Source: Lamprocystis purpurea DSM 4197
Lineage (GTDB): Bacteria; Pseudomonadota; Gammaproteobacteria; Chromatiales; Chromatiaceae
DNA: 64,000 bases
Assembly: GCF_000379525.1 (NCBI RefSeq)
Contig: NZ_KB902474.1
Span: forward strand, 70,294-134,293
Reading direction: 5' to 3'
The notes below the pieces were generated by a model. That model was not told where the DNA came from. It made no database searches and saw only the letters and a program-made list of their open reading frames with translations. A program made the translations under genes and the position numbers. Shown piece by piece: positions 32,734 to 49,143 of the stretch; within the stretch, counting starts at the first letter, position 1, and every line of letters begins with the position of its first letter.

Positions 32734-35690
32734 GGCTCACCTAGGCCGAACGCCTCGGAGACATGCCGATAGGCGCCGTTGGCACCTCCGGCGGCATCGC
32801 TCGCGAACCAGGCCGCCAGCTCGCGAAATGCCTCCTGCCGCTGGCGCTCCTGCTCCAGGACAGTGCGAATCGATGCCCCGGAGGGCGCCGCGGCCGCAAG
32901 TTCCTCCATCGCCTCCGTCATATTTCGAAAGCCCGCAATCAAATTGGTTGCGGCGGCCCCATCGGGCTGTTTGAGGTGTTTGCCGTTGGTCCGGAGTGTT
33001 TTACCGGTCGCACGGATCCAGCCCTCGGCCTCCGGGGCCGCGGAAACGAGGGCGAGTTGACCTGGCTTTCCCGGCTCGTCGAGCAACGCCTCGTACCGAG
33101 GCTCCCATTCGTCTCTGAACGCCTGGGCGAAATGAGGGCTGCCGTCCCATGCGCCATAAACGCTGACGTTCATCAGTCCTTCCACGCGCTCGCTGAGGCC
33201 TGCAAGGCTGGTTGCCAGGGCCTCCTGGTGTGTTTCCCCACGCTCCACGCGCTGCAGCCAGTCGTAAACCGACTCCGGGAGGTCACTGGGGCGTCGGTTG
33301 TGCAACAGGTCGGTGACCACCACCCGTCGCGCGTCCTCACCGATCGGTGCGCCGCGCTCGAATCCGGCCAGCAGCGCCGCTACCGCGAGGCCCGGGCGGC
33401 TTTGACACAGGGCGCCAAGGAAGTCAGGTTGCACGATCAGCGCTTCGATGTCCGAGATCAGCCCGTTACTGGCCAGTAAGGCGATATAGCGCGCTGCCAG
33501 GTCCGCCAACCAGTCTTCAGTTGCTGCATCGGGATTGCGTTGCCGGAACGCGCAGGCGGCGATGAACGCCTCCGCCACGTACCCCTCGTCGGCCAGTCCG
33601 CGCAGAAAGGACCCCATCAGGTCCGGCGGCGACTTGGCGGCTCGGACATAGAGCCATTTTGCCAACAGGTCGCGACTGGCGCCGGGCGTCGGGTCCCCGG
33701 CCAATCGCTCCATCGCCCCCGCGACGACCGGGTCATCGCCCCGCTGCTCAAGCAAGCGCCGCAGCGCCGCGTGGGATTGTTGACCAGCCCTGAAGTCATC
33801 GGCGACCACATCGACCAGCTCATTGAATTTATCTGTTCCCACTTCGGCGACGCGCCGGAGCTGACCCCGCGCGTCGAGATCGCAAGGCCATTCCGGAGTG
33901 CGGGTGCCGTCGCTGCACAACAGGGCGTGCCAATCACGAGCCCATAGCTCGAATCCGATTTCGACGAAGCAATGAAGCTCCTCCTCGCGTCGCTCCGCTC
34001 GCTGCTCCGCAGAGGTCAACATACAGAGTAGGTCGTAGGCATTCCAATGGATCGGCTCTGGGTAGCCGTCGGGCCGATCGCCGAGGAGGGGCAGGAGCAA
34101 CCTGAGTGCGTTCCAGAGCTGATTCGGAAGGCTCGGGTCTACAAGATCGCCATCCTCCTGCAAGCGGGCGAGCCGATCCTCAAGCCATTGCCGCCGGCTG
34201 GCCGGCTCCGGTATAACCCGCTCAAAGTCCTTGGGGCGCAGGCGGCGTTCCCGAAGCAGATGGTCCAACGAGTCGCGCCGCAGATGCGACTCGATAGCCC
34301 CGAGTTGGGCCTCGATCTCTTCGAAGGTCTCGCTCCGGGCTGCAGTGGTCAGCGCCGCCAAGTGCCCCGTGATCGTCTCAGGGTCGGCAACACTGGCGGC
34401 GGTCAGGCGCCCGGTCGCCTGCTCGAACCAGCGGTCAATCCAAGCGTCGGCGCACACTTCGGCCTGGCGCCGAACCTCATGAAGGAACGAGTCGAGGTCC
34501 GTCAGGCGCTCCGGGAGGGGAGGGAACGGGACTGAATCGCCATCCTCAGCCAGACGACCGAATAGATCGCACGCTTTGTGATAGGCGGCATGTGCGCCCC
34601 GAAGGAGGTCGGCAAGCGCATGGGCCTGGGGTAGGAAATCCCCAATGATACCGTTCCGGATTTTCCCCCAGGGGTCGAGCAGTTGCCGAATCTCGCCAGC
34701 TAAGCGGTCGACAGCGGCGAACAATTGCCCTGGGGCCAGGCCTTGCTCCGCGGCGGGCGGCCCCAGTGCCTCGTCCTGGGTACCTTTGGCAATCGCGAGC
34801 TTTTCCAGGCGATCCACGAAGCGTTCGTAGGCCCGAGAAAGGTAAGTAGACTGCGCCGTGGTCGAACCGACGACGATGGGTTCGCCGTAGGCAATTTCAG
34901 GGTCATAGGGCACGCGGTCGAACAGGTCGATCAACAATTCGCCGAATCCCGTGAGCTGACGAGTTGCATACTCCAACATTCGGTTGCGCTCGTCTCGGGA
35001 ACCGACCTCTTCTACCCGCGACGGAAGCAAGAAAACCTTTTGTAAGCGGGCGTCCTGGCCGGCCTTAGAGCGGTAGGCATCGACGGCGCGTGCAATGCGC
35101 TTGGCGCCATCGATCCCCTGGGCGTGGAGGGCGAACAGCACGACCAGGACGTCGGGCAGTTGGGCGGTACAGATGCTCCCGATGTCCGTGAGGCCGGTAC
35201 GGCTGTCGATCAATACAAAGTCAGGCCGCGGAGTGCTGTCGTCCTCGCCAACGAGCGCTTCGCGCACGTACTCCATGAAGGCGTAGCCCTGGCGGTCGGC
35301 ATAGAACTCCTCCCAGGGGAAACTGGCTACCCGTTGCGGATAGCCCTCGTCCAGGCACCCGGCGGGGAGAAGCCGCAACGAGCCGCAGTGTCGCTCGCGG
35401 GCAGAGTGGTCCACGGGCATCAGCAGGCCCCGTATGTCGGGTGGGATGCTGCCGTCCTGCCATTGCTCTGTGAGGATATCGATCAGGCCGGGGCGACTCG
35501 CGAGATCCTGGTCGGAGAGAGCCACTCCTCCCGCGTTGGACTCCGTGAAATAGGTGTGCAATCCCGGGCTCTCGAGGTCCATGTCGACCATGACGACATC
35601 GCGACCTCGGTTCGCCAGGGCGACGGCAGCGTTGGCAAGCAGTTGCGTCCGGCCGACCCCGCCCTTGTATGAATAGAAGGTGATGACCAT
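32730..35690 (-). CDS. KGGVGR-variant ParA/MinD-like ATPase with large helical C-terminus
   Basis: A 986-residue protein. The start is placed at 35690 because the SIMIBI ATPase begins there: MVITFYSYKGGVGRTQLLAN, where residues 9-15 form a deviant Walker A motif with Arg in place of the usual Lys, then VVMVDMDLESPGLHTYF and FVLIDSRTGLTDIG (A' and B motifs). The ATPase covers about 260 residues; the remaining 700 are helical and resemble repeat or sensor scaffolds in large conflict proteins. KGGVGR variants are recurrent in bacterial NTP-dependent conflict cassettes. It is translationally coupled to the STAND gene and lies 28 bp after the 242-residue gene. Confidence 0.8.
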   Translation of the reverse strand: MVITFYSYKGGVGRTQLLANAAVALANRGRDVVMVDMDLESPGLHTYFTESNAGGVALSDQDLASRPGLIDILTEQWQDGSIPPDIRGLLMPVDHSARERHCGSLRLLPAGCLDEGYPQRVASFPWEEFYADRQGYAFMEYVREALVGEDDSTPRPDFVLIDSRTGLTDIGSICTAQLPDVLVVLFALHAQGIDGAKRIARAVDAYRSKAGQDARLQKVFLLPSRVEEVGSRDERNRMLEYATRQLTGFGELLIDLFDRVPYDPEIAYGEPIVVGSTTAQSTYLSRAYERFVDRLEKLAIAKGTQDEALGPPAAEQGLAPGQLFAAVDRLAGEIRQLLDPWGKIRNGIIGDFLPQAHALADLLRGAHAAYHKACDLFGRLAEDGDSVPFPPLPERLTDLDSFLHEVRRQAEVCADAWIDRWFEQATGRLTAASVADPETITGHLAALTTAARSETFEEIEAQLGAIESHLRRDSLDHLLRERRLRPKDFERVIPEPASRRQWLEDRLARLQEDGDLVDPSLPNQLWNALRLLLPLLGDRPDGYPEPIHWNAYDLLCMLTSAEQRAERREEELHCFVEIGFELWARDWHALLCSDGTRTPEWPCDLDARGQLRRVAEVGTDKFNELVDVVADDFRAGQQSHAALRRLLEQRGDDPVVAGAMERLAGDPTPGASRDLLAKWLYVRAAKSPPDLMGSFLRGLADEGYVAEAFIAACAFRQRNPDAATEDWLADLAARYIALLASNGLISDIEALIVQPDFLGALCQSRPGLAVAALLAGFERGAPIGEDARRVVVTDLLHNRRPSDLPESVYDWLQRVERGETHQEALATSLAGLSERVEGLMNVSVYGAWDGSPHFAQAFRDEWEPRYEALLDEPGKPGQLALVSAAPEAEGWIRATGKTLRTNGKHLKQPDGAAATNLIAGFRNMTEAMEELAAAAPSGASIRTVLEQERQRQEAFRELAAWFASDAAGGANGAYRHVSEAFGLGEP

Positions 35691-35718
35691 GGGATAGGGT
35701 GAAGGCGCAGGTGTGGCG

Positions 35719-36447
35719 CTACCTAAACCCGAACTCCTGCTGCATGGTCGGCAAGAAAACGGGAACGTCCTGAAACCTTTCCAGCCATGACTTGCGCTTA
35801 GGGCCCGAGTCGCCGACAGTAGTAATGAATCGCGCGCCAACCGGATCTTCGCGTATCCTCTGGAGCAACACTCCCCAATGATGTTCCTGAGCGTGCCGGT
35901 GCAGGGGCGAAGGACCTCTGTATTCCACTGGCAGCTCGGATTCAAACTCTTTGAGCAGGCTCGGAGACAGGTGGCCCCGCATCAGTGCAACAAAGGCTAG
36001 CAAGGGAAACGGATCTTTCGGGAGTGCGCGAATGGCATACCAGATGCGTTCGTCCATTTTATCGGTTGTTATGCTTCGCTCCAGATCCTCGGCGACGGCG
36101 GCGAGGGCCTCCTTGCCGCGGCTCCACAGAACCGAAGCGGCGTCGCGAGCCGGGAGATAAATGGGGGGCACTTCGGCATCCATGGCCACCAGGTGGTAGT
36201 CCCAAGCAAAGGAGAATCCCGGCTCCAGACGTTGCCAATACCCAGCTTCGCATTCCTCATCGAAAGATAGCCGCGGTACGGGGGAAAACCCTTGTTCCGA
36301 TCCGTCCCAAGGTTCTACGTTCGCGACGAAATAGATCTCGTCTTGGTCCGGGGCCCGGCAAACGGGGTCGAGAAACTGTGGGAGTTCGTCCCTGCCCGGA
36401 GCTGCAGTAGCGCCGATGACGACGTAGCCCTTGCCCGACTCGATCAT
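35719..36447 (-). CDS. Unknown 242-residue protein, second gene of the NTPase operon
   Basis: Start at 36447 (MIESGKGYVVIGATAAPGRD), overlapping the upstream stop codon by four bases. The first 130 residues are alpha/beta, with an acidic stretch (PDQDEIYFVANVEPWDGSEQ) and WDYHLVAMDAEVPPIYLPAR. The C-terminal part is helical and basic, ending TMQQEFGFR. I do not recognise a family. Tight coupling implies it works with the two ATPases; it could be a sensor or effector. Confidence 0.65.
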   Translation of the reverse strand: MIESGKGYVVIGATAAPGRDELPQFLDPVCRAPDQDEIYFVANVEPWDGSEQGFSPVPRLSFDEECEAGYWQRLEPGFSFAWDYHLVAMDAEVPPIYLPARDAASVLWSRGKEALAAVAEDLERSITTDKMDERIWYAIRALPKDPFPLLAFVALMRGHLSPSLLKEFESELPVEYRGPSPLHRHAQEHHWGVLLQRIREDPVGARFITTVGDSGPKRKSWLERFQDVPVFLPTMQQEFGFR

Positions 36448-37019
36448 GGTTTGGCCTCCCGCTGAATCCGATTGCACATCCAGGCGGTGACATAGCGTCT
36501 CAAATCGTCTGGGGTGGGGTTGGTCTTGACACCGTGCCGCGGGGGGCGGCCGTAGTATTCGATGCGGACCCCGGAACCTTCGATCACCGGGCACAGGTGC
36601 TCGGCAATAGACGGTGTTAAGTAGCGAGGCGATGGAAGAAAAAGAGCGAGGATACACCGTGATTCCAGGGGCAGTCTGGGACGGACTCTCACCTCGAACA
36701 CGCGCAGCAGGAAGTCGTTAGGGCGCGAAGACATGACTTGCGCGGGGTCTGGCTGTGCATAGGCCCCGCTACGCAGATAATCGGCCGCGCAGGCGAAACA
36801 GGTCGCAACATAGGCGACCAGGTAGTCACGATACCAGGGCGCTCCAAGGGTGTGGGCATGGAATACGCTCGATTTGGCTTCATCCGTATCGAGGCGCAGG
36901 AGTGGTGCGACGTGCCGGAAAAAGGCGCCGGTGTCCCAGGGCGATCCATCAATCTGCAGCTCAGCGTCCTGCTCAATGCTGCGGGAAAAGGCAAAGGCGA
37001 CCTGGCGTTGCGGGTACAT
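36444..37019 (-). CDS. Unknown 191-residue protein, first gene of the NTPase operon
   Basis: Product begins MYPQRQVAFAFSRSIEQDAE and contains FRHVAPLLRLDTDEAKSSVF and LGAPWYRDYLVAYVATCFAC, then a more polar region with PSPRYLTPSIAEHLCPVIEG. No domain is recognised. The start lies 42 bp after the stop of the Ehr small-subunit gene in the same direction, so transcription may read through from that operon. The four genes overlap or nearly overlap throughout, as expected for a single complex or pathway. Confidence 0.65.
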   Translation of the reverse strand: MYPQRQVAFAFSRSIEQDAELQIDGSPWDTGAFFRHVAPLLRLDTDEAKSSVFHAHTLGAPWYRDYLVAYVATCFACAADYLRSGAYAQPDPAQVMSSRPNDFLLRVFEVRVRPRLPLESRCILALFLPSPRYLTPSIAEHLCPVIEGSGVRIEYYGRPPRHGVKTNPTPDDLRRYVTAWMCNRIQREAKP

Positions 37020-37061: not shown

Positions 37062-37586
37062 TTAGCTTAATTTCCGCGGCGCCGCGAGCGCCGCCAACAG
37101 CCCCCGCAGCAGGTCCAGCGGTGCCGGCGGACAGCCGGGGATCTTCACATCGACCGGAATGACGTTCTCGACCGCGCCGCAACTCGCGTAGGAGACGCCG
37201 AATTCGCCGCCGTCGCAGGCGCAGGTGCCGGCGGCGATGATGATCTTCGGCACCGGAGTCGCCTGCCAGGTCCGACGCAGCGCCGTTTCCATGTGGCGCG
37301 AGACCGGTCCGGTGATGAGCAGGGCATCGGCATGGCGCGGAGAGGCAACGAAATGCAGGCCGAAGCGTTCAAGGTCGTAATAGGGATTACTCAGCGCATG
37401 GATTTCCAGCTCGCAGCCGTTGCATGAGCCGGCATCGACCTGGCGAATGGACAGACTGCGCCCCAGCCGGGCATGGACATGGCGCAGCACCTCTACCCCG
37501 AGCCGTTCGAGTTCCTCATCCTCGATGCCGGGTGCGGCCTCGGTGATGACGCCGATCCCCAGGGATTGCTTGAGTATGCGAATCAT
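37062..37586 (-). CDS. Small (NuoB/HyfI-like) subunit of an energy-converting hydrogenase-related complex
   Basis: A 174-residue NuoB-family subunit. The four cysteines that would bind the proximal N2-type [4Fe-4S] cluster are present: Cys55 and Cys58 in GSCNGCELE, one in GTCACDGG and one in PGCPPAPLD. It follows the large subunit gene by three bases. In group 4 hydrogenases and complex I this subunit passes electrons to or from the catalytic site at the interface with the large subunit. Here the large subunit lacks [NiFe] ligands, so the electron path ends elsewhere. Confidence 0.88.
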   Translation of the reverse strand: MIRILKQSLGIGVITEAAPGIEDEELERLGVEVLRHVHARLGRSLSIRQVDAGSCNGCELEIHALSNPYYDLERFGLHFVASPRHADALLITGPVSRHMETALRRTWQATPVPKIIIAAGTCACDGGEFGVSYASCGAVENVIPVDVKIPGCPPAPLDLLRGLLAALAAPRKLS

Positions 37587-37589
37587 GGT

Positions 37590-39260
37590 CTACAGGTCCT
37601 GGCCCGAATAGGACCCATTGACCGATTTGTTGCAGACCGGAAAATCCGGGACGATGTTACCCAGGATCAGCCGTTCCAGTGCCGGCCAGGTGAACCAGCT
37701 CGGATCACGCGGAAAATAGCGCGCGACGCGTCCGTCCGTACCGAAACGGACGAAGGTCAGGATCTCCCCGCGCCAGCCGTCCACCAGCCCGAGACCGACG
37801 GCACCCGACGCCGCCGTTGGCACCGGCGCGGTGACCGCGCCCTCCGGCAGGGTCGCCAGCAGCACATCCAGCAGATCCAGGCTGCCGAGCACCTCGGTCA
37901 TGCGCACCCGCACCCGCGCGGCCACGTCGCCGTCGCTCTCCGCCGACGGCTTGACCTCCAGGGTATCGTAGGGCGGATAGGGGCAGTCGCGGCGCACGTC
38001 GAAGGGCAGGCCGCTGGCTTTGCCCACATAACCGGTGCAGCCCAGCGACCGGGCATCCGTTGCCGACAGCCGCCCGGTGGTCACCAGCCGGTCGTCCAGC
38101 GAGGGGTGATCGTCGATGATGTCGAACAGCGGCAGGACCGCCTTGCGCAGGGCGGCCTGATCATCACCCAGGGTGCGGGGCGCCGCGGGCGTCAGATCGC
38201 CGGCGACACCGCCGGGGATGACGGCGTCCATCATCAGGCGATGTCCGAAGAGTTCGCGGCTGCGCCGCTGCCAGCGCTCGCGCAGGCGGCCGCATTGGAT
38301 CAGGGCGAAGGTGAAAGCGACGTCATTACAGATGGCGCCGAGATCGCCCAAATGGTTGGCGATGCGCTCGCGCTCGGCCATGATTGCCCGCAGCCACAGG
38401 GCGCGCGGTGGCACCGCGCAGCCGGCGGCGCGCTCCATGGCCTGGCAGGCGGCCCAGGCGTAGGCGACCGTGGAGTCGCCGGAGACCCGCCCGGCGAGGC
38501 GCGCAAGCCCCGCCGGATCGCGGCCGACGGCAATCTTTTCGATCCCCTTATGGACATAGCCCAGCCGCTCTTCCAGTCGCAGCACCTCTTCGCCCATGGC
38601 GTGGAAGCGGAAGTGACCGGGCTCGATGATGCCGGCATGCACCGGGCCGACCGGGATCTCGTAGACCCCGCTGCCGTGGATGGTCGTGAACGGATAGTCC
38701 GCGTCGGCCGGGATCTGGCAGGTCACGTGCCCGGCCGCCGGGAAGTCCGCGCGCAGCGGAAACACATCGGCTGGCCAGGCCTGATGGCGGGTCCAGCGGC
38801 GCGTGTCCGGATGGCCGGTGAACACCACGCCGGTCAGGTCATGGCAGTGCCGCTCCAGACGGTCGAGTCCAGGGAAGCGCGGCGTCTGGGAGGGCAGCTT
38901 GGGTCGCTCCAGCGGGACACGCGCTTCCAGCACCACATAGTCGCCCTCTTTCTCAAGACAGGCGTACACGGCGATGCTGCTGGGTGGCCGGCTGCCGGCC
39001 GGCTCGTTCTGGTGCCGACGGCCGACCGGCTGACCATCATCCTCACTGTCGGCCGGCTGATGGTCGGCACCGCAATCGGCCCAGACCCCCGCGTGCCGCA
39101 TCCCCAGGCTGGCCGCGACCTTGGCCACGTTGCCCCAATCCTCGGCATCCAGCACCAACCGGTGGGCCGGGGCCAGCAGCCGGGCGTTGCCGGAGTGCGC
39201 GAGCAAGTGCTCGTCCTCCAGCCGCGCCAGGAATTCGGACAGCCAGTCGAAGCGATTCAT
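37590..39260 (-). CDS. Large subunit (NuoC-NuoD/HyfG-like) without [NiFe] ligands
   Basis: A 556-residue fusion of a 30-kDa (NuoC-like) domain, about residues 1-180, and a 49-kDa (NuoD/HycE-like) domain. The N-terminal L1 motif that would read RxCGxC in [NiFe] hydrogenases is AGRVSGDSTVAYAWA here, and the C-terminal DPCxxC motif is replaced by DFPVCNKSVNGSYSGQDL. Hence no NiFe site can form. HFRFHAMGEEVLRLEERLGY VHKGIEK and LGDLGAICNDVAF are well conserved with HyfG. This matches energy-converting hydrogenase-related (Ehr) complexes. A Gln/Asp-rich insertion (ADHQPADSEDDGQPVG) near residue 65 is unusual. Confidence 0.85.
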   Translation of the reverse strand: MNRFDWLSEFLARLEDEHLLAHSGNARLLAPAHRLVLDAEDWGNVAKVAASLGMRHAGVWADCGADHQPADSEDDGQPVGRRHQNEPAGSRPPSSIAVYACLEKEGDYVVLEARVPLERPKLPSQTPRFPGLDRLERHCHDLTGVVFTGHPDTRRWTRHQAWPADVFPLRADFPAAGHVTCQIPADADYPFTTIHGSGVYEIPVGPVHAGIIEPGHFRFHAMGEEVLRLEERLGYVHKGIEKIAVGRDPAGLARLAGRVSGDSTVAYAWAACQAMERAAGCAVPPRALWLRAIMAERERIANHLGDLGAICNDVAFTFALIQCGRLRERWQRRSRELFGHRLMMDAVIPGGVAGDLTPAAPRTLGDDQAALRKAVLPLFDIIDDHPSLDDRLVTTGRLSATDARSLGCTGYVGKASGLPFDVRRDCPYPPYDTLEVKPSAESDGDVAARVRVRMTEVLGSLDLLDVLLATLPEGAVTAPVPTAASGAVGLGLVDGWRGEILTFVRFGTDGRVARYFPRDPSWFTWPALERLILGNIVPDFPVCNKSVNGSYSGQDL

Positions 39261-39278
39261 GATGGACTCATAATTGGC

Positions 39279-40787
39279 TCATAGCAGATGCGCGCCCGTG
39301 ATCAGCAAGGTCGCCCGATCCAGCCAGCCGGCGAGGAATCCGGGGATCGCCAACCCCAGCCAGAGCACCAGACTCAGGTGCACCGCGACCGGGATCATGT
39401 TGGCTTCCACCGGCTGCTGACCCTCGGGCGGGACCCCGTAGACCATTGGATGGATGTGCCGGAACAGTCCGGCAAAGGCGACCGCGAGCCCGGACAGCAG
39501 GGCCAATGTGAACCAGGGGGCTGATTTCATGGTCGCCGTCAGCAACAGAAACTCGCTCATGAAGACGCCAAAGGGCGGGAAGCCGGCGATGGCCGCCACC
39601 CCGATCAACAGCGACCAGCCCACCGCGGGCTGGGTGCGGATCAGGCCGCGGATCTGGTCGATCGACTGGGTGCCGGCGATATGTGTGGCGTGGCCGACGG
39701 TGATGAAGATCGCCGACTTGGTGAGCGAGTGCACCAGCATGTGCAGCAAGGCGCCGAAGGTCGCGAGCGGCCCGCCCAATCCAAAGGCAAAGGTCATGAG
39801 CCCCATATGCTCGATCGATGAGTAGCTGAACATCCGTTTGATGTCGCGCTGCCGATGCAGAAAGAGCCCGGCGACCAGGAATGACACCAGCCCGAAACCC
39901 ATCAGCAAATGGCCCGCCAACTGCGGCGAGGCCGTCTCCGCGAGCGACCCGTCGACCAGCATCTTGAGCCGCACCACCGCGTACAGGGCGACATTGAGCA
40001 AGAGCCCGGAAAGCACGGCCGACATCGGGGTCGGGCCTTCCGAGTGCGCATCGGGCAGCCATTGGTGCATGGGCACCAGACCGACCTTGGTCCCGTAACC
40101 GACCAGCAGGAAGACGAAGGCGAGCCGCATCACCGCCGGTTCCAGGCCGCCGGCATTGGCATACAAGGTGCTCCAGGTCAGGCCGGCGGCGGGGTCGGCG
40201 ATCACCTGCTGGGCGGCGAAGTAGGTCAGTACGGTCCCGAACAGGGCCAGCGCGATCCCCACGCCGCACAGGATGAAATACTTCCAGGCCGCTTCCACCG
40301 CCTCCGGGGTCCGATAAAGCGACACCAGCAGCACGGTGGCGAGGGTCGCGCCCTCGACCGCCACCCACATCACCCCCAGGTTATCGGTGGTGAGCGCCAG
40401 CAGCATGGTGAACATGAAGAGCTGGTACATGGAGTGGTAGGTGCGCATGCGGCGCGGGCCGATCCGGCCGATCTCCAGCACATAGCGCATATAGGGCCGG
40501 GAGAAGATGCTGGTCGTCACCCCAACGAAGGCGGTCAGCACCACCAGATAGACATTGAAGGCATCGACCCGGAAGCCCAGGCCGGCGCTCGGGCCGAACA
40601 GTTGCGCGCCGAGCGTACCGGACACCTCGCCGGTCACCGCGACCGCGGCGCCGAGCCACAGGGCACCGCCCAGCGAGATCACCGAGACGCCCAGATTGAA
40701 CCACCCGGCCACCACCGGCCGGCGCACCAGCCCCAGCGCCAGGGCACCCAGCAGCGGGGTCAGCAGGACGAGCAGCAGCGGGGTCAC
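39279..40787 (-). CDS. Antiporter-like membrane subunit (HyfF/ND4-type)
   Basis: A 502-residue antiporter-like subunit of the NuoL/M/N class with about 14 helices. GTG at 40787 is the start: it overlaps the preceding stop codon by four bases. Seen: YHSMYQLFMFTMLLALTTDN, the lysine-bearing GYGTKVGLVPMHQWLPDAHS and the FSYSSIEHMGLM segment, that is, the proton-channel residues (Glu/Lys) typical of the family. Likely translocates H+ or Na+ as part of the complex. Confidence 0.85.
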   Translation of the reverse strand: MTPLLLVLLTPLLGALALGLVRRPVVAGWFNLGVSVISLGGALWLGAAVAVTGEVSGTLGAQLFGPSAGLGFRVDAFNVYLVVLTAFVGVTTSIFSRPYMRYVLEIGRIGPRRMRTYHSMYQLFMFTMLLALTTDNLGVMWVAVEGATLATVLLVSLYRTPEAVEAAWKYFILCGVGIALALFGTVLTYFAAQQVIADPAAGLTWSTLYANAGGLEPAVMRLAFVFLLVGYGTKVGLVPMHQWLPDAHSEGPTPMSAVLSGLLLNVALYAVVRLKMLVDGSLAETASPQLAGHLLMGFGLVSFLVAGLFLHRQRDIKRMFSYSSIEHMGLMTFAFGLGGPLATFGALLHMLVHSLTKSAIFITVGHATHIAGTQSIDQIRGLIRTQPAVGWSLLIGVAAIAGFPPFGVFMSEFLLLTATMKSAPWFTLALLSGLAVAFAGLFRHIHPMVYGVPPEGQQPVEANMIPVAVHLSLVLWLGLAIPGFLAGWLDRATLLITGAHLL

Positions 40788-41470
40788 TGGCTGTCTCCCC
40801 CGGTCTCGCGCAGTCGGTTCAGCCGGTCGACATCCAGCGAATCGATGCTGTCGCGCAGTTGCAGGAAGAAGACACCGAACAGCACCATGGCGACCAGCAC
40901 GTCGAAGGCGACCCCCAGTTCGACCACCAACGGCATCCCGTCGGTGGCCGAAACGGCGGCCAGGAAGAGCCCGTTCTCCATCGACATGAAGCCGAGCACC
41001 TGGGCCACCGCCTGCGTCCGGAACACCATCATCAGCAGCCCGATCAGCACCACCGACAGGCTGATGGCGATGATGTTGCGGGTGAAGGTCATCTCGGCAT
41101 GGATCATCGGCAGCACCAGCCAATAACTGAAGATCACCAGCGCCACCGCACCCATGGTCACCAGCGCCGGACTCTGCAGGGATTCGGTGTGACGCTCCAG
41201 GTTCAGCCGGCGGGTCAGGCGGTGCAGCATCCAGGGGATCAGCAGCGCCTTCAGCGCCAGTGTCAGCGCGGCCGAGAAATACAGGTGATGGACCTGCCCG
41301 GTCGCCGCGACCACCGCGGTCACGGCCGCCACCAGCGCGCCCTGCCAGGCGAAGGCATGGATCGCCGAGATCAGCCGGACCTGCGCCAGCAGCACGAACG
41401 ACAGGAACAGCACGATGGCCGCCAGCACCAGCAACAACTGCTGGAGGAGCGGCAGCAGGGTCAAATTCAT
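40784..41470 (-). CDS. HyfE-like membrane subunit
   Basis: A 228-residue protein with about six membrane helices; LVLAAIVLFLSFVLLAQVRL at the N-terminus, LGFMSMENGLFLAAVSATDG in the middle and DVLVAMVLFGVFFLQLRDSI at the end. This is the HyfE/MrpC-NuoK-like layout with the conserved glutamate in FMSMENG. Both ends overlap their neighbours by four bases. Confidence 0.85.
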   Translation of the reverse strand: MNLTLLPLLQQLLLVLAAIVLFLSFVLLAQVRLISAIHAFAWQGALVAAVTAVVAATGQVHHLYFSAALTLALKALLIPWMLHRLTRRLNLERHTESLQSPALVTMGAVALVIFSYWLVLPMIHAEMTFTRNIIAISLSVVLIGLLMMVFRTQAVAQVLGFMSMENGLFLAAVSATDGMPLVVELGVAFDVLVAMVLFGVFFLQLRDSIDSLDVDRLNRLRETGGDSQ

Positions 41471-42432
41471 GCGCCGACCTCCAGAATCACGTGGCTGAGC
41501 AAGCCGAGCAGCGACAGGAGCAGGGCCAGATTGAGAAAGGCCGGGGCGCGAAACAGCCGCATCTTCGCCAGCACCGTTTCCCCCACCGCCAGCACCGCGG
41601 CGAGCACGGCGAGCTTGCCCACCACCGCGGCCAACCCCAGACCCAGGGCGGCCGGGCTCAACCCCTGGCCGATCCCCCAGGGGAAAAAGACATTGACGAT
41701 CAGGGTTCCGTACAACAGCAGCTTGAGTTGTGCGGCCCATTCCATCAGCGCCAGATGCCGGCCCGAATACTCGAGCAGCATGGCCTCATGAACCATGGTC
41801 AACTCCAGATGGGTCGTCGGGTTGTCCACCGGAATCCGGCCGGTCTCGGCAATGGCCACCAGGACCAGGCCGCCCAGGGCGAACAGATAGGACGGACGCA
41901 ACACGAAGCCGTCGCTCAGATGGTGATCGATCACGCTGGAGAGGTTGGTGGAATGGGCGGTCATCGCGAGCGTGAAGACCGCCATCAGCATGGCCGGCTC
42001 GGCCAGTGCGCCGATCAGCATCTCACGCGAGGCCCCCATGCCGCCGAAGGCCGTGCCCACGTCCATGCCCGCCAGGGCTAGAAAGACCCGCGCCAAGGCC
42101 AGCAGACCCACCAGCACGATGATGTCGGCGATGGCCGCGGTGGGCAGGTCCACCACCAACAGCGGCACGGTCGCCGCCGCCATCCAGGTGGCCGTGAAGA
42201 CGATATAGGGCGCGGCACGGAATAGCGGCGAGGTGGTATGGGCGACCCGCGCCTCCTTGGCCAGCAGCTTGTACAGATCCCGATAGGGCTGGAGCAGGGA
42301 CGGCCCGCGGCGGTTCTGCAGGCGCGCCTTGACCTTGCGCAGCCAGCCCACCAGCAGCGGCGCGAGTGCGACGTAGAGCAATGACTGGAGGGCCGCGATC
42401 CCCCAACCGGACCCGGTCAGGAAGTTACCCAT
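41467..42432 (-). CDS. HyfC/NuoH-like membrane subunit
   Basis: A 321-residue NuoH/HycD-family membrane subunit that forms the base of the quinone- or hydrogenase-module interface. Seen: KARLQNRRGPSLLQPYRDLYKLLAKE, the conserved loop after helix one, and ETGRIPVDNPTTHLELTMVHEAM, the acidic E-channel motif. The gap to hyfB-like gene upstream is 126 bp; the other junctions are overlaps. Confidence 0.88.
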   Translation of the reverse strand: MGNFLTGSGWGIAALQSLLYVALAPLLVGWLRKVKARLQNRRGPSLLQPYRDLYKLLAKEARVAHTTSPLFRAAPYIVFTATWMAAATVPLLVVDLPTAAIADIIVLVGLLALARVFLALAGMDVGTAFGGMGASREMLIGALAEPAMLMAVFTLAMTAHSTNLSSVIDHHLSDGFVLRPSYLFALGGLVLVAIAETGRIPVDNPTTHLELTMVHEAMLLEYSGRHLALMEWAAQLKLLLYGTLIVNVFFPWGIGQGLSPAALGLGLAAVVGKLAVLAAVLAVGETVLAKMRLFRAPAFLNLALLLSLLGLLSHVILEVGA

Positions 42433-42558
42433 GTCGCCACCCCGGACCGACTGTCAGGAAAAACCGCTCACGGCACCATGCAGATCCGGATGCTTGAACG
42501 GACGCCGGTTGCCGTTGTGCGCCGGGCCCGCGGGTCCGTGTGAGCACGCGTCTTGCGT

Positions 42559-44616
42559 TCATGTGATGATCCACAGGAGCCCCACCAGGGTCGCGAGCGT
42601 CCAGCCGAGATAGACCCGGACATTGCCCGATTGCAGCCGCACCACCCGGCGCGCCGAAGATTCGACCGCGCGGGCGATCGGCAGGTAGAGCAGACCCCAG
42701 AAACGGTCGCGGATGCGCAGCCGATGGCGCGTGCTGCCGTCCTCCTGGATGGTGACCGACTCCTCGATCTGGAACAGCAGGCCGAACACACGCCGTATCG
42801 GCTGGGCGAAGGAGGTGGCGGTGTACTGCATCCGCGGCGAGGGCGGCGCGAAACCGCAGTCCCAGGCATCGCCGCGGTGGACCCAGCGCACCGCCGCGCC
42901 CTTCGCCCACAGGTGGTTCAGTCCCCAGAAAGCGGTCAAGCCGATCCCGGCCAGCATCAGTACCACCAGCGGGCCGCTGTAGCTCGCGGTCTGTGGCGAG
43001 ACCGGGGTCAGCCACAGCCAGCCGTAGGCACCGGCCTGCGGCAGACCGTCGCCCAGCACCTGTCGCGGCACCGCGTCGATCAGCCCGATCACCCAGGTCG
43101 GCAGCACCCCGAGCGCCAGGCACAGCACCGCCAGCAAGCCCTGGCCCGCGAGCATCCCCCAGGGTCCCCGGCGGGCCCGGCGCACATGACGCGACCGGGC
43201 CTGACCCAGGAAGGCGATGCCGTAGACCTTCACGAAGGTCACCGCCACCAGTGCCCCGGTCAGGGCCAACACCGCCGAGGCGATCGGAATCAGGCTGCGC
43301 AGCACGCCGCTGTCGAGTTGCCAGGCCTGGAGTGCCGCCTGAAAGGTCAGCCACTCGGAGACGAAACCGTTGAACGGCGGCAGGGCGGAGATCGACAGCA
43401 CCCCGACCAGGAAAAAGAGCCCGGTCCAGGGCATCCGCCGCAAGAGTCCGCCCATCTGATCCAGGTCGCGCTCGTGGGTCCCGTGCAGGATGGCCCCGGC
43501 ACCCAGGAACAGCAGACCCTTGAAGAGCGCGTGGTTCAAACAGTGATACAGGGCGGCGACGAAGGCGAGCGCACCCAGTTCGGTGAAGTCCGCGCTCAGG
43601 AACACCAGGCTCAGACCCAGGGCAATGAAAATGATGCCCAGATTCTCGACCGATGAGTAGGCGAGCAGCCGCTTGAGGTCGGTCTGCATCAGCGCCGAGA
43701 GCACGCCGAACAAAGCCGAGAGGCAGCCGATCGCCAGTACGACCACGCCCCACTGCCACTGGATTTGCCCGATCAGATCGAAGCACACGCGGATGAAGCC
43801 GTAGACCGCGACTTTGAGCATCACCCCGGACATCAGCGCCGAGATATGCGAGGGCGCGACCGGATGCGCCTCCGGCAGCCAGGCGTGCAGCGGCACCAGA
43901 CCGGCCTTCATTCCGAAACCCACGAAGGCCAGCGCGAAGGCCACCCCGGCCCAGACCGCGGGCACCGGCGCGGCGCGCAGATCGACGAAGGCAAAGCTGT
44001 CGCCGAAGGCGGCCAACACGCCATAGGCGAGCAGGATCATCAGCCCGCCCACATGGGCCATCAGCAGATAAAGGAAGGCGGCGCGGCGGTTCTCGGCGTG
44101 TTCATGATGGAAGGCAACCAGGAAATAAGACGAGAGTGACATCAACTCCCAGGCGACCATGAACAGGAAGGCGTCATCGGCCAGCACCACCAGCAGCATC
44201 CCGGTGAGAAAGAGCCCGCTGAATCCGCCCAGGGCCGTGAGCGAATCCTTACCGTGCTCGAAACTCCGGACATAGGACGGACCATAGATCCCGACGGCAC
44301 AGGTCACGACCCCGATCACGGCCAGGAAGAACCCGGACAGGGCATCGAGCCGGATGTGCCAGGGCAGCCAGGGCAACCCGAGCGGCAGGGTCACCGACAC
44401 CACCTCGCCGACCAAAAGCGCCATCACCCCGGCCGCCAGGGCCGCGAGTCCGACGAAACCGAGCAGCGGCGTCGCGACCCGGCGCAGCACCCAGGGCGCT
44501 CGCCGGGCGGCCAGCGACACGATTGAAGAGAGCAGGGCCAGGACCACCGCGAGTCCGGCCAGGTGCAGGGCCGTGTCCATCGACAGCGCCGGCGTCAGGA
44601 GCGCGGTCAGGCTCAT
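42559..44616 (-). CDS. HyfB/NuoL-type antiporter-like subunit
   Basis: A 685-residue large antiporter-like subunit. The core of 14 helices carries the conserved LLVVLADDAFLFMVAWELMS (acidic residue on helix 5), KAGLVPLHAWLPEAHPVAPSHISALMSGVMLKVAVYG (split around the channel lysine) and FKGLLFLGAGAILHGTHERD. The C-terminal extension ends VYLGWTLATLVGLLWIIT. It is the first structural gene of the operon and starts 10 bp after the XRE regulator. No ferredoxin subunit (HyfA) gene is nearby. Confidence 0.88.
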   Translation of the reverse strand: MSLTALLTPALSMDTALHLAGLAVVLALLSSIVSLAARRAPWVLRRVATPLLGFVGLAALAAGVMALLVGEVVSVTLPLGLPWLPWHIRLDALSGFFLAVIGVVTCAVGIYGPSYVRSFEHGKDSLTALGGFSGLFLTGMLLVVLADDAFLFMVAWELMSLSSYFLVAFHHEHAENRRAAFLYLLMAHVGGLMILLAYGVLAAFGDSFAFVDLRAAPVPAVWAGVAFALAFVGFGMKAGLVPLHAWLPEAHPVAPSHISALMSGVMLKVAVYGFIRVCFDLIGQIQWQWGVVVLAIGCLSALFGVLSALMQTDLKRLLAYSSVENLGIIFIALGLSLVFLSADFTELGALAFVAALYHCLNHALFKGLLFLGAGAILHGTHERDLDQMGGLLRRMPWTGLFFLVGVLSISALPPFNGFVSEWLTFQAALQAWQLDSGVLRSLIPIASAVLALTGALVAVTFVKVYGIAFLGQARSRHVRRARRGPWGMLAGQGLLAVLCLALGVLPTWVIGLIDAVPRQVLGDGLPQAGAYGWLWLTPVSPQTASYSGPLVVLMLAGIGLTAFWGLNHLWAKGAAVRWVHRGDAWDCGFAPPSPRMQYTATSFAQPIRRVFGLLFQIEESVTIQEDGSTRHRLRIRDRFWGLLYLPIARAVESSARRVVRLQSGNVRVYLGWTLATLVGLLWIIT

Positions 44617-44626
44617 GGGGTTTGGC

Positions 44627-44917
44627 TCATGATTTCGCTCCGGGTGTTGAGATGCGCCCCGTTCTGTTCGGCACGGTTTTCAGCCGCACCCCGCGCCCGC
44701 CGCCGCTGCTCACCGCACCCTCGCCGATCAGCTCGACACCGCACCGTTCCAGCGCTTCGACCAGCTTCATCAGCGAGTCCACATTGCCGCGCACCTGCCC
44801 ATCGCTCGCCTCCATCCGCTGTATGGTCGGCAGCGACAACCCCGCCGCCTCGGCCAGACGGCGCTGGTCGAGCCCGAGCAGGGCGCGTGCGGCACGAACT
44901 TGAGCGGCAGTGAGCAT
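44627..44917 (-). CDS. XRE-family HTH regulator
   Basis: A 96-residue regulator with an N-terminal Cro/C1-type HTH (AAQVRAARALLGLDQRRLAE, AAGLSLPTIQRMEASDGQVR) followed by a short C-terminal strand region. I start it at 44917, because the HTH begins there; 21 in-frame codons upstream are unconserved. It lies immediately upstream of the six membrane-complex genes in the same direction and may control them, although such small XRE proteins are also common as orphan antitoxins. Confidence 0.8.
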   Translation of the reverse strand: MLTAAQVRAARALLGLDQRRLAEAAGLSLPTIQRMEASDGQVRGNVDSLMKLVEALERCGVELIGEGAVSSGGGRGVRLKTVPNRTGRISTPGAKS

Positions 44918-45345
44918 GTTCCGGACATCGGTTGTGATGTGTAGCGCCTTAGAGTAGCCAGTTTGGGCTTGACCTGGCAAGGGCTAAACCGCGCCCAGCG
45001 CGGTATGCGATGTTGTTGGATGGGATCGGCCCCGGCAGACGCGACGATTGCTGGAGTTGGCGCGGTTTAAAGTGATTTCCGAGAAAGGATCTGCCGCCGC
45101 ACATGTACGCGCGGCTTCAGTCGCCCCACGTGTAGAATTCAGAACATCACGGTTTCACAGCTTCCGGAGGTTGCCAATGCGGCCTGCAGCGCCCCCAGCC
45201 GAGTACGAACAAGACCTCCAAGATTCCGGCCACTTGGACTCGCCGGGTGCGTAGTCAGGCCATCCTGGCCTGACACCGTCAGGGCTGGAAGCCCTGACTA
45301 CGCAAGCCGCTGGCCGGGATTACGATCAAGGCCCCGCGTACCGCA
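44918..45345. other. Intergenic region with REP-like palindrome
   Basis: No gene is supported. The frame at 45048-45254 is made of repeat-like sequence: GTGATTTCCGAGAAAGGATC at 45071 recurs, slightly altered, near 63345. At 45248-45303 a compound palindrome (GCGTAGTCAGG ... CCCTGACTACGC with an inner GGCCATCCTGGCC) forms a REP-like hairpin. Confidence 0.5.
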
Positions 45346-47022
45346 TCACGGCGGCACCGTGTCCGTCCAATTCATCCCGCCGCCGGATGGACGCTCGGGG
45401 AGCTGAAGATAGCGGCCGGAGGCCGGCGGCGGGGTGACACCTGCTCCGGCCGCCTGCCGTTGCTGCTTGTGCGCGGCGACTTGCCGCTCGATCAGCGTAC
45501 GGGTCGCGGCCGTCAGGTAGCCGGTCTCCTCAAGGTCTTGCCGACGTTGAAAGGCGCCCAGGACACGGCGAAAGTCCCGTCCGAACTTGCCTTGAGTCAA
45601 ACGGCAGAGATAGCCGAGTTCGCCAAGCTGATCCACGATCAACTGCCGATCGGCCGGCGACAGTCCCAGGAGTTCCTCGGCCCGCTCCGGCGTCGGCTCC
45701 AGATGCAAGCTGAGCTCGACCGGCGCCTCCCCGGTGACCTCGACCCACTCCTCGGCATCCGGGTAACCCGCGGCCCGTACCTCGACCCGATGGGGGCCGC
45801 GCGACAGGCCGCTCACCTCCATCGGTCGATCCATGCCCGCCGCGCCCTTGATTTCGCCGTCGACGAAGACAAGCGCGGAGGTGTCCACCTGGATGCGCAG
45901 GCGTCCATCAAGAACAGACGCCGACTCGGGTTCGGCGCTCGGCACCGGATCGGTCGCCGTCTCGTCGGCCCCCTCGGGTCCAGCCGCAAGATTCGCCGCC
46001 GATGTTCCGGCCTCTGACCCGCCGACCGCTCCCGATGCAGCGAGCCGCTTCGCCATCGAAGTCACCACCGGCGCCGCCAGCACCACCCGAAAACCGGTAT
46101 CCGCCGTCCGTACATCGCCCGCTGCATCATAGGGCTGCACCTCGACCTGCCGATCCGCCCGCAGATCCTCGTCGGTGCTGTGGATGCCCCCGCCGCGCAG
46201 CACATCGCCGCCGACCTGGCCGGGAAACTGCTCGGAACGATAGGGGTCGTTCATGCATTCCCAGGCATTGCCGTACAGGTCGTGCAGCCCCAGGGGATTC
46301 GGCAAGCGCAGTCCGATGGGTGCGATCGTTCCATCCGCGTTGCGGTTGTACCAGGCATGACGGTCGAGTCCCTCCGGCATGGGATAGCGGGATCGCGCAA
46401 AGTCCTCCGCGGAGACCAGAGCACCGCCGCGTGCCGCGTACTCCCATTCCAGGTCCAGCGGCAGCCTGACGAAGGCCGGCTTGCCGTCGACTCGCGGCAG
46501 ACAGGGTGTCGCAGCAGCGGTGCACGGCGGAATCCGCTCCGCATTGGCGGCCAGCCAGCGCGACAGTTGCGCGGCGAAGTTGATCGCGTCGATCCGACTC
46601 ACGCCGACCTGCGCGGTCACCGCCGCCGCCCCGGTCAGTGCCGGTGCCGGCGGGCAGGCCCCGCCCGCCGCCTGCGCCGTGACCGTCAGATATTGCAGCG
46701 TCGTGACCTCGTACTTGCCGATCAGCAGGTGCTGCTCCGCTGTCCCGCCCATGCTCGTGAAGGCGCCGACCAACGCCGTGCGCGTGCTGCCGGCCGGTGT
46801 CGCCACCGGCCGGAAGGCGAGCGCACCCCCGCACGGCAGCGGTACGATCAGGTCGTCAGGCAGCGGTTTGGGATTATAAAGCGTCGCCGGCCAAGCCGCC
46901 GGGACCGCGCCGGGGTCAGCCCTGGCCGTGACCAGGACCAGGCTCGCACCAGCGCAAAGGAGCGCCGACAGGAGCACCGGTATGTTGCGCACGAGGCCGG
47001 AAAGCGAGAGTTGTGGCGGCAT
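45346..47022 (-). CDS. Secreted FGE-sulfatase/PEGA protein
   Basis: A 558-residue exported protein. A signal peptide (PVLLSALLCAGASLVLVTARA) is followed by an FGE-sulfatase domain at about residues 60-320 (LLIGKYEVTTLQYLTVTAQA, LPLDLEWEYAARGGALVSAE, LHDLYGNAWECMNDPY, DTGFRVVLAAP). The PEGA domain lies at about 370-440 (VDTSALVFVDGEIKGAAGMD), and the last part resembles a peptidoglycan-binding segment (LGAFQRRQDLEETGYLTAAT). No formylglycine-type catalytic pair is obvious. Its ending is not of the diversified type seen near 60 kb. Upstream ribosome binding is GC-rich and unremarkable. Confidence 0.8.
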   Translation of the reverse strand: MPPQLSLSGLVRNIPVLLSALLCAGASLVLVTARADPGAVPAAWPATLYNPKPLPDDLIVPLPCGGALAFRPVATPAGSTRTALVGAFTSMGGTAEQHLLIGKYEVTTLQYLTVTAQAAGGACPPAPALTGAAAVTAQVGVSRIDAINFAAQLSRWLAANAERIPPCTAAATPCLPRVDGKPAFVRLPLDLEWEYAARGGALVSAEDFARSRYPMPEGLDRHAWYNRNADGTIAPIGLRLPNPLGLHDLYGNAWECMNDPYRSEQFPGQVGGDVLRGGGIHSTDEDLRADRQVEVQPYDAAGDVRTADTGFRVVLAAPVVTSMAKRLAASGAVGGSEAGTSAANLAAGPEGADETATDPVPSAEPESASVLDGRLRIQVDTSALVFVDGEIKGAAGMDRPMEVSGLSRGPHRVEVRAAGYPDAEEWVEVTGEAPVELSLHLEPTPERAEELLGLSPADRQLIVDQLGELGYLCRLTQGKFGRDFRRVLGAFQRRQDLEETGYLTAATRTLIERQVAAHKQQRQAAGAGVTPPPASGRYLQLPERPSGGGMNWTDTVPP

Positions 47023-47103: not shown

Positions 47104-48171
47104 CTAACCGAAGCTCACCGGCAGGCGGCGCGGCCCCCAGGTGCCCGGCCGCGCCTCGAAGACACCGGGCAGCGGCGTGCCGCACGAACGGCAGCGGCCC
47201 TGGTCGTCGAGGCCCCAGGCGCCGAGCTGGTACCAATCCCGCTCGATCAGCAGGGCGCCGCAGTGGCGGCACCAGGTGCTGTCGCCGGCGCTGTCGTGGA
47301 CGTTGCCGGTATAGGCATAGCGCACGCCGTTGCGCCGTGCGATCTCACAGGCATGGCGCAGGGTCGCGGGCGGGGTCGGCGGGGCATCGCGCAGCTTCCA
47401 GTCGGGATGGTAGGCGGTGAAATGCATCGGCACGTCCACCCCGAGGTTGTCCACCACCCAGCAGGTCATGGCGTCCAGTTCCTGGTCGCTGTCGTTATAG
47501 CCGGGGATGAGCAGCGTGGTCAGTTCGACCCAGACTTGGGTCTCGTGGTGCAGGTAGCGCAGGGTGTCCAACACCGGCGCCAGATGCGCGCCGCAGACCC
47601 GGTGATAGAAGTCCTCGGTGAAGGCCTTCAGATCCACGTTGGCCGCATCCATCGCGGCAAAAAACACCTCGCGGGCACCCGGACTCACATAGCCCGCGGT
47701 GACCGCCACGTTACGGATGCCGAGTGCGCGGCAGGCCGCCGCGGTATCCACCGCATACTCCAGGAAGATGACCGGATCGTTGTAGGTGTAGGCGACGCTG
47801 CGGCAGCCGAGCTGCGCCGCGCGTCGGGCAATGGCCTCCGGGGTCGCCGCCGCGGCCAGGGTGTCCTGCTCCCGTGACTTGCTCATGTCCCAGTTCTGAC
47901 AGAAGCGACAGGCCAGATTGCACCCGGCGGTGCCGAAGGAAAGCACCGGTGTACCGGGCAGGAAGTGGTTGAGCGGTTTCTTTTCGATGGGGTCGACACA
48001 GAAGCCGCTGGAACGTCCGTAGCCGTCCAGGACCAGGGCGCCGTCGCGGCAGCCGCGCATGAAGCAGAACCCTTGCTGGCCCTCGTGCAGTTGGCAGGCC
48101 CGCGGACAGACGTCGCACTGCACCCGGCCGTCCGGGAGCGCGTGCCAGAATTGGGTAGGATGCTTGGACAT
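47104..48171 (-). CDS. amrS: AmmeMemoRadiSam system radical SAM enzyme
   Basis: A 355-residue radical SAM protein of the AmrS family: N-terminal zinc-type CDVCPRACQLHEGQQGFCF, cluster motif TAGCNLACRFCQNWD (CxxxCxxC), and a C-terminal zinc-knuckle-like CRHCGALLIERDW ... CRSCGTPLPG. It is encoded divergently from the genes for the MEMO1-like protein and the AMMECR1 protein, which together make the AmmeMemoRadiSam set. The modification carried out is unknown, although the family is thought to act on a small molecule or macromolecule. Confidence 0.92.
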   Translation of the reverse strand: MSKHPTQFWHALPDGRVQCDVCPRACQLHEGQQGFCFMRGCRDGALVLDGYGRSSGFCVDPIEKKPLNHFLPGTPVLSFGTAGCNLACRFCQNWDMSKSREQDTLAAAATPEAIARRAAQLGCRSVAYTYNDPVIFLEYAVDTAAACRALGIRNVAVTAGYVSPGAREVFFAAMDAANVDLKAFTEDFYHRVCGAHLAPVLDTLRYLHHETQVWVELTTLLIPGYNDSDQELDAMTCWVVDNLGVDVPMHFTAYHPDWKLRDAPPTPPATLRHACEIARRNGVRYAYTGNVHDSAGDSTWCRHCGALLIERDWYQLGAWGLDDQGRCRSCGTPLPGVFEARPGTWGPRRLPVSFG

Positions 48172-48354
48172 GGGTTAGAACTCCTGACACTGTCGGCGAT
48201 GACGGCGCGAAAGCGCACGCCGGTCGATCTGAAAGATGCGCGGTGCGGGTGGTCCGGGGCCGGCCCGGTCGGTCCGACTCGCCCCGCGGCGGCACTTTCA
48301 CTACACTTAATAGTAGTCGGCCCACATCGACGGGCCTGTAAAAGGGGGTTGCAT

Positions 48355-49143
48355 ATGATGATCGATCGTCAACCGGCCGTGGCCGGGCGCTTCTACCCGG
48401 CCGATCCCATGACGCTGCGCCGTCAGGTCGACGCCTTGCTGGCGGCCGTCGCGCCGACTGTGCAGACCCATCCCAAGGCGCTGATCGCGCCCCACGCGGG
48501 ATATCCGTACTCCGGGCCGATCGCCGCCTCGGCCTATGCCCAGCTCGCCCCGATCGCCGCCCGCATCAGCCGGGTGGTGCTGCTCGGTCCGGCCCACCGG
48601 CTGCCGTTTCGCGGCATCGCCTATCCGACGGCGGAGCGTCTGATCACCCCGCTGGGTGCGGTCGAGCTGGATCTCGCGGCGCTCGATGACCTCGCGGACC
48701 TGCCGCAGGTCGAGCCGCTGGATGCGGCCTTCGACGGCGAACATTGCCTGGAGGTGCAGTTGCCTTTCCTCCAAACCCTGCTCGCTGATTTTCGGGTCGT
48801 TCCGCTGATCGTGGGCGCCGTGGCGCCCGAGGCGGTGGCACAGCTTCTGGAGCGGATTTGGGGCGGGGGTGAGACCCTGATCGTCGTCAGTTCCGACCTG
48901 AGTCACTATCTGGACTATACCAGCGCGCAACGGGCCGACCGGGCCACCAGCAGCGCCATCGAGCGGCTCGCACCCGAGGCGCTGCACCACGACAGCGCCT
49001 GCGGCGCCACCCCGGTGGCCGGGCTCTTGCTCGCGGCGCGCGGCCACGGGCTGTCGGTGCGCACCCTGGACCTGCGTAACTCCGGCGATACGGCCGGCCC
49101 TCGTGACCAGGTGGTCGGGTACGGTGCCTATGCCCTCTTCTGA
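48355..49143 (+). CDS. amrB: AmmeMemoRadiSam system protein B (MEMO1-like)
   Basis: A 262- or 263-residue MEMO1-family protein (related to class III extradiol dioxygenases). Start at 48355 (MMIDRQPAVAGRFYPADPMT) with AAAGGGGG upstream; the next ATG is only one codon further. Seen: IAPHAGYPYSGPIAASAYAQ, VVLLGPAHRLPF, FDGEHCLEVQLPFLQTLL and VVSSDLSHYLDY. Overlaps the AMMECR1 gene by 14 bp. Confidence 0.93.
   Translation: MMIDRQPAVAGRFYPADPMTLRRQVDALLAAVAPTVQTHPKALIAPHAGYPYSGPIAASAYAQLAPIAARISRVVLLGPAHRLPFRGIAYPTAERLITPLGAVELDLAALDDLADLPQVEPLDAAFDGEHCLEVQLPFLQTLLADFRVVPLIVGAVAPEAVAQLLERIWGGGETLIVVSSDLSHYLDYTSAQRADRATSSAIERLAPEALHHDSACGATPVAGLLLAARGHGLSVRTLDLRNSGDTAGPRDQVVGYGAYALF

Follow-up and report, generated by a model that had tools for sequence, protein, structure and literature searches.

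Energy-converting-hydrogenase-related (Ehr) complexes have been reported from Geobacter, comammox Nitrospira, some ammonia-oxidising archaea, Methylacidiphilum and Margulisbacteria (PMC7894505, PMC10284858, PMC10432482, PMC6688271, PMC6349859). Compared by description, they are like the operon analysed here in their group-4-like subunits, their antiporter-like membrane part and their lack of CxxC ligands. The operon lies in a 64-kb stretch of DNA from Lamprocystis purpurea DSM 4197, here called the window, and is a member of this published family, not a new kind of complex. Antiporter-like, HyfC-like and HyfE-like membrane subunits are all present together with a NuoB-like small subunit, and the large subunit is related to those of group 4 but is without both CxxC pairs. 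Features of group 4 [NiFe] hydrogenases (two CxxC pairs, a C-terminal extension and a nearby ferredoxin-type subunit) were not found. For Thiodictyon syntrophicum Cad16 the hydrogenases Hyn/HydSL, Isp, Hox and Hup have been described, and the term 'hyf' occurs 0 times in the available part of that text (PMC5944118).

The operon and its large-subunit site

The operon is intact and occupies positions 37062-44616 on the minus strand, with six genes in the order HyfB-C-E-F-(NuoC+D fusion)-NuoB-like. The reading frames are tightly packed, overlapping or at most 126 bp apart, with the largest gap between B and C. The HyfB-like antiporter-type subunit (42559-44616, 685 aa) scored 836.2 bits with the NCBIfam model for hydrogenase 4 subunit B, over its cut-off, and the HyfC/NuoH-like subunit (41467-42432, 321 aa) matched Pfam NADHdh with 146 bits. 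The best match of the HyfE-like subunit (40784-41470, 228 aa) was the hydrogenase 4 membrane subunit model NF008556, at 82.6 bits under the cut-off of 136 bits, and the HyfF-like antiporter-type subunit (39279-40787, 502 aa, GTG start) was over the cut-off of the NCBIfam model for hydrogenase 4 subunit F with 703.1 bits. The large subunit, EhrL (37590-39260, 556 aa), has a NuoC-like part fused to a NuoD/HycE-like part and matched the families Complex1_30kDa, NiFeSe_Hases and Complex1_49kDa. The NuoB-like small subunit, EhrS (37062-37586, 174 aa), matched Oxidored_q6. These family matches and coordinates bear out the six Hyf-type subunits named in a preliminary description of this DNA, and its assignment of the operon to Ehr was right. 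Gene order and changed site recur in more than 100 loci, which excludes chance. A promoter and terminator scan was uninformative, with one promoter-like and five terminator-like sites compared to shuffle means of 0.7 and 4.2.

The genome (6.90 Mb, 211 contigs) encodes a separate NuoD on contig C135 and, on contig C140, a group-4 large subunit with all four cysteines, which was used as an internal control for the ligand columns. When aligned with this protein and with E. coli HycE (7z0s_E), EhrL has RVSGDS in place of RxCGxC and NGSYSG in place of DPCxxC, and the four [NiFe] cysteine columns read S260, S263, S550 and G553. The loss of both CxxC motifs had been noticed earlier, and the alignment extends it to all four ligand columns. 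C543, the cysteine of DFPVC, is outside these columns and is variable (63 C and 43 I among 120 sequences). The preliminary description had named beforehand a finding that would speak against it, an alternative cysteine set able to bind NiFe; none was found, no EhrL column being at least 90 % cysteine in 120 sequences. Its claim that the complex is not a hydrogenase is strongly supported by the sequence for [NiFe] hydrogenases.

From 120 wider loci, 119 large subunits were obtained by ORF calling, and the L gene of L199, whose frame was merged with that of F, was found by tblastn. The ligand columns read SSSG in 75 of the 119 loci and STSG in 27, and ten other patterns were seen in 17. One ligand cysteine was retained in 3 of 119 loci and more than one in 0 of 119; among the 13 close rows, L038 and L039 have a single cysteine, at column 260. 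D262, E298, H303, D306, D421, R423, R449, R497, D519, K545, S546 and D555 were invariant (119/119). A comparison with three NuoD rows and 12 rows that keep all four cysteines gave residues specific to Ehr, among them I212, D262, D306, N312, D345, D519, N544, K545, N548 and G553. Judged from these alignments, the changed site is a conserved signature of the family, with GD at 261-262 and DFP..NKS.N..Y.G.DL at the C-terminal end. The columns of the NuoD His and Tyr, which we take to be quinone-binding residues of complex I, hold I212 (119/120) and G261 (79/80). Since the ligand cysteines and the NuoD His and Tyr are all replaced, the EhrL site can, by its residues, be classed neither with hydrogenase sites nor with the usual quinone sites, but its conservation is strict.

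Group 4 [NiFe] hydrogenases have a cleavable C-terminal extension after the last CxxC, though not universally. EhrL ends two residues past the last ligand-column region (...YSGQDL) and is without such an extension. The structure of EhrL predicted from a 24-row alignment had a mean pLDDT of 78.8 and a pTM of 0.84, and its best PDB match was HycE (7z0s_E, TM 0.79/0.82), followed by NuoCD. The model was made without the small subunit, and pLDDT falls below 50 in residues 189-238 and 544-556, where a large part of the site is located.

Distribution, selection and origin

Ehr-type large subunits were found in 18 of 55 relatives (at least 48 % identity) and in 62 of 398 sampled Pseudomonadota genomes (E≤1e-80), with the own genome counted in both sets. 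At least 569 relatives were confirmed in a GTDB scan, and Nitrospirae, Deltaproteobacteria and a Myxococcaceae MAG are among the 80 kept. The best named relatives among the matches listed were from Thiorhodococcus drewsii (69 % identity) and Thiocystis violacea (68 %). Of 72,556 plasmid records 80 matched at E≤1e-40; 25 of these 80 rows were inspected, and four Escherichia records may be true hydrogenases. A plasmid of Cupriavidus necator N-1 encodes a homologue with 50.9 % identity. Some plasmid records label Ehr-type large subunits 'nickel-dependent hydrogenase large subunit', and such labels would inflate predictions of hydrogen metabolism. All six genes were together in 80 of the 82 loci with room for them, the exceptions being L070, without S, and L100, without B and C. 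Two genomes, G026 and G033, keep all six genes but carry them on three contigs (51-153 kb), with B-C-E-F forming one part and L and S each lying alone (L065, L066, L067, L068, L046 and L047).

The residues of the ion path are close to invariant. In the HyfB-like subunit E157, K237, H362, K366 and E421 were kept in 96-97 of 97 sequences, in the HyfC-like subunit E145, E196, E210, E216 and E221 in 100 of 100, and in the HyfE-like subunit E165 and E184 in 86 of 86. In the HyfF-like subunit E145 was kept in 111 of 111, K234 in 109, and K357 and E412 in 110. The earlier proposal of a redox reaction coupled to ion transport gains support from these residues for its ion half; the coupling we still infer. 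The dN/dS values of the six genes (Nei-Gojobori) were 0.017-0.141 against the two closest relatives (L036 and L037) and 0.10-0.26 against L040. Within EhrL, these two closest pairs gave 0.21-0.22 for the NuoC-like part and 0.09-0.11 for the remainder. The HTH gene upstream of the operon (0.57 and 0.32 in the two closest pairs) and the flanking dn312 gene (0.48) were less constrained. The near-invariant ion-path residues and the low dN/dS suggest that the Ehr operon is maintained by purifying selection and is no relic.

In a quick tree of 34 rows with the motif columns removed, Ehr and the more distant Ehr2 rows formed one group (SH-aLRT 100), which includes one four-cysteine protein, L134 par1. 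The poorly resolved base of this group fits one or two events of cysteine loss. In the same tree, made without published EhrL sequences, Ehr groups with relatives of many taxa, the Geobacteraceae MAG included. L134 par1 has kept the CCCC pattern, has I212, D306, N544 and K545 in common with Ehr and ends in ...CYSCTDR, and a second betaproteobacterial genome carries an 88 % relative of it. In both genomes the gene of the four-cysteine sister is part of a B-C-E-F-L-S operon that has the orientation of the Ehr operon and is separated from it by about 0.4 kb in G457 and by 5.7 kb in G459, where B is only partly inside the stretch taken. The large subunits of the Ehr group with CCCC and an NKSF motif, from two betaproteobacterial genomes, are L134:638-2419, L260, L279:14680-16203 and L280:13806-15155; no further sister protein like L134 par1 topped Ehr in the 398 genomes. 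The four-cysteine sister is a candidate link between hydrogenase and Ehr. Together with the replacement signature it opens two questions to test: which reaction took the place of hydrogen chemistry, and by what route a hydrogenase can remain useful after losing its metal, a change comparable to the one that led to complex I.

Two other variants were observed. Close to the operon of the first type, a Geobacteraceae MAG, Piscinibacter and Rhodoferax carry a second, more distant Ehr type that ends in ...NKSF.LSYCG.DL (L281:2430-3950 and the operon around it, L108:2-1855 and L142:17341-19077). The own genome, on contig C176 (L002), and the loci L256 and L257 encode a NuoD-like protein with one cysteine per CxxC pair (RICVPDP, LDACPPEVDR), which has NuoB-like and NuoC-like neighbours; for the own genome this is a further metal site, lost by half.

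Neighbouring genes, electron input and possible function

An XRE-type HTH gene (44627-44980, minus strand, 117 aa, Pfam HTH_3) lies 10 bp 5' of B and is probably the regulator of the operon. Thirteen of the 18 close loci have a homologue upstream of B. The gene is missing from L051 and L052, the sequence of L050 stops within B, and L046 and L047 are loci of the split operon. Eight wider loci have another type of regulator 5' of B, an XRE protein whose tail, judged by eye, is cupin-like. The genes at 35719-37019 were not counted in the system, because among the 18 close loci they adjoin the operon only in the window and in its nearest relative. The region 29419-37019, next to ehrS, encodes a large AAA-type protein, a ParA/CbiA-type protein that matches the PADLOC candidate PDC-M28B, and two proteins without Pfam or PADLOC match; it is perhaps a defence-like island. 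On the other side, 45346-47022 encodes a protein of 558 aa that combines FGE-sulfatase, PEGA and peptidoglycan-binding domains; in L046 a partial homologue of it (36 %) is found 3 kb away from the isolated ehrL. Adjacent radical SAM, Memo and AMMECR1 genes at 47104-49714 are presumably a set of the AmmeMemoRadiSam type.

The EhrS cluster cysteines 55, 58, 122 and 152 were kept in 111 of 111 sequences, in agreement with the four NuoB-like cysteines noted earlier. The absence of a nearby ferredoxin subunit was likewise confirmed, the sole CxxCxxCxxxC in the six frames of the window starting at 5865, about 31 kb off. There is no NuoE/F/G/I electron-input part at the locus and no NuoI-like gene nearby. 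That no maturation gene is nearby held for HypD, the sole maturation gene searched, which is present in a single copy on another contig (C193). No conserved gene for an electron donor was found next to the operon, either in the 18 close loci or among the 13 larger neighbour clusters of the 118 wider loci.

At the level of sequence, six subunits, a conserved predicted ion path, one NuoB-type cluster site, the loss of the NiFe ligands and a conserved changed site are shown. We consider it somewhat probable that the intact complex is a working redox-driven ion pump with a single cluster, a changed site and a soluble donor. As no input subunit of the NuoI/HyfH type is encoded, a soluble donor (ferredoxin, flavodoxin or a dehydrogenase) would dock on the small subunit. 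Electrons would then pass through the [4Fe-4S] cluster of the small subunit and reach an acceptor or substrate in the altered pocket of the large subunit, where relatives carry out H2 chemistry or quinone reduction. Like group-4 hydrogenases and complex I, the complex would use this reaction to move H+ or Na+ through its HyfB/C/E/F part. Such a redox-driven pump agrees with published suggestions for Ehr (PMC6349859, PMC10284858, PMC10432482). Against it stands that no donor gene is conserved at the operon, so that we infer the electron input, and that one cluster remote from a partner might be unable to serve as a redox chain.

It is possible, though we regard this as tentative, that the complex is an oxidoreductase between ferredoxin (or a similar donor) and quinone, resembling complex I without the NADH arm. 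After HycE, the best structural match was NuoCD of complex I, and quinone has been suggested as a possible Ehr acceptor (PMC6349859), but the His and Tyr columns of NuoD are occupied by I212 and G261. It is unlikely that the complex acts as a channel or cation/H+ antiporter in which the redox state of the EhrS cluster controls gating and the large subunit catalyses nothing. The intact antiporter-like subunits and the lack of an input subunit and of known catalytic ligands would fit such a function, whereas the many invariant pocket residues of the large subunit go beyond the needs of a mere scaffold.

A complex linked to formate dehydrogenase (FDH-Ehr) has been proposed for Margulisbacteria and is hinted at by Geobacter proteomics: fdhA occurs with nuoE/F-like genes in Ehr genomes, and Ehr subunits were more abundant on formate (PMC6349859, PMC7894505). 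For the present operon we regard this as improbable. Using one model, TIGR01591, FdhA was over the cut-off in 7 of the 18 relatives with Ehr and in 11 of the 37 without it, which does not support formate dehydrogenase as a general Ehr partner in this lineage. The own genome has no FdhA over that cut-off, and no fdh gene is among the conserved neighbours listed.

NDH-1MS of cyanobacteria and DAB of chemoautotrophs are inorganic-carbon systems and were used as analogues. That Ehr is a comparable bicarbonate or CO2 complex is very doubtful, as is the related idea that a polar pocket on the old metal site would bind CO2/bicarbonate or a similar carboxylate, coupled to redox or ion flow. Among the 91 loci with at least 900 bp upstream of B, ten have a SulP gene there in the orientation of B, at a distance of -3 to 257 bp (eight methanotroph-group loci, the betaproteobacterial MAG L113 and the proteobacterium L211). 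SulP lies inside the Ehr operon in L098 and L111, at distances of 1.0 and 1.7 kb with the same orientation in L140 and L076, and on the opposite strand in L077. Downstream of the L135 operon there are DabA (795.6 bits) and a DabB-like gene. The 36 Ehr-bearing genomes gave 90 SulP matches, some split, an average of only about 2.5 each, and the adjacency expected by chance was estimated at less than 0.1 of 91 loci. This neighbourhood is a weak hint of a link to inorganic carbon, but eight of the ten loci are from methanotrophs, one lineage, the window's own operon has no SulP beside it, and sulfate and other anions are also SulP substrates. DabA does not track Ehr genome-wide (8 of 18 Ehr-bearing compared to 13 of 37 other relatives), and no link of SulP, DabA or carbon concentration to Hyf or Ehr was found in the titles or abstract starts of the best 20 of 302 and the best 8 of 266 papers.

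That the complex is a dead hydrogenase drifting to loss is hardly credible: the metal site is lost, and a 2026 paper describes the Geobacter Ehr as nonfunctional and under relaxed selection and reports that two of the ehr genes acquired missense changes in prolonged culture (PMC13194489), but the low dN/dS, the invariant residues and the retention of six genes largely contradict this, at least in this clade.

Comparison with known systems

Beyond the preliminary description, the NuoC-like fusion, the upstream XRE HTH gene, the second (four-cysteine) group-4 hydrogenase of the genome and the commonness of the family are described here. The analysis also adds site conservation, distribution, selection, the replaced quinone ligands, the sister operons and the SulP/DabAB adjacency.

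The Rv0082-Rv0087 locus of Mycobacterium tuberculosis may resemble Ehr. It has been described under the name 'Hyc' as six genes by a regulator gene, encoding a putative [NiFe]-hydrogenase complex (PMC6901956). Formate hydrogenlyase and hydrogenases 3 and 4 of E. coli (Hyc, Hyf) are similar to the window's complex in that HycE is the best solved match of the large subunit by both sequence and fold, and the HyfB and HyfF models are over their cut-offs in the window's subunits. They differ in having the four NiFe cysteines, a ferredoxin-type subunit and a C-terminal extension, all of which the window's complex is without. Respiratory complex I shares NuoC-, D-, B-, H- and L/M-like subunits and the ion-path residues, whereas the window's complex is without the NADH arm and NuoI and has the quinone His and Tyr columns replaced. 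The Geobacteraceae MAG L111 has a large subunit of the window's type with 48 % identity. Set against the published Ehr by description, the HTH gene and the NuoC fusion are features seen in the window's operon.
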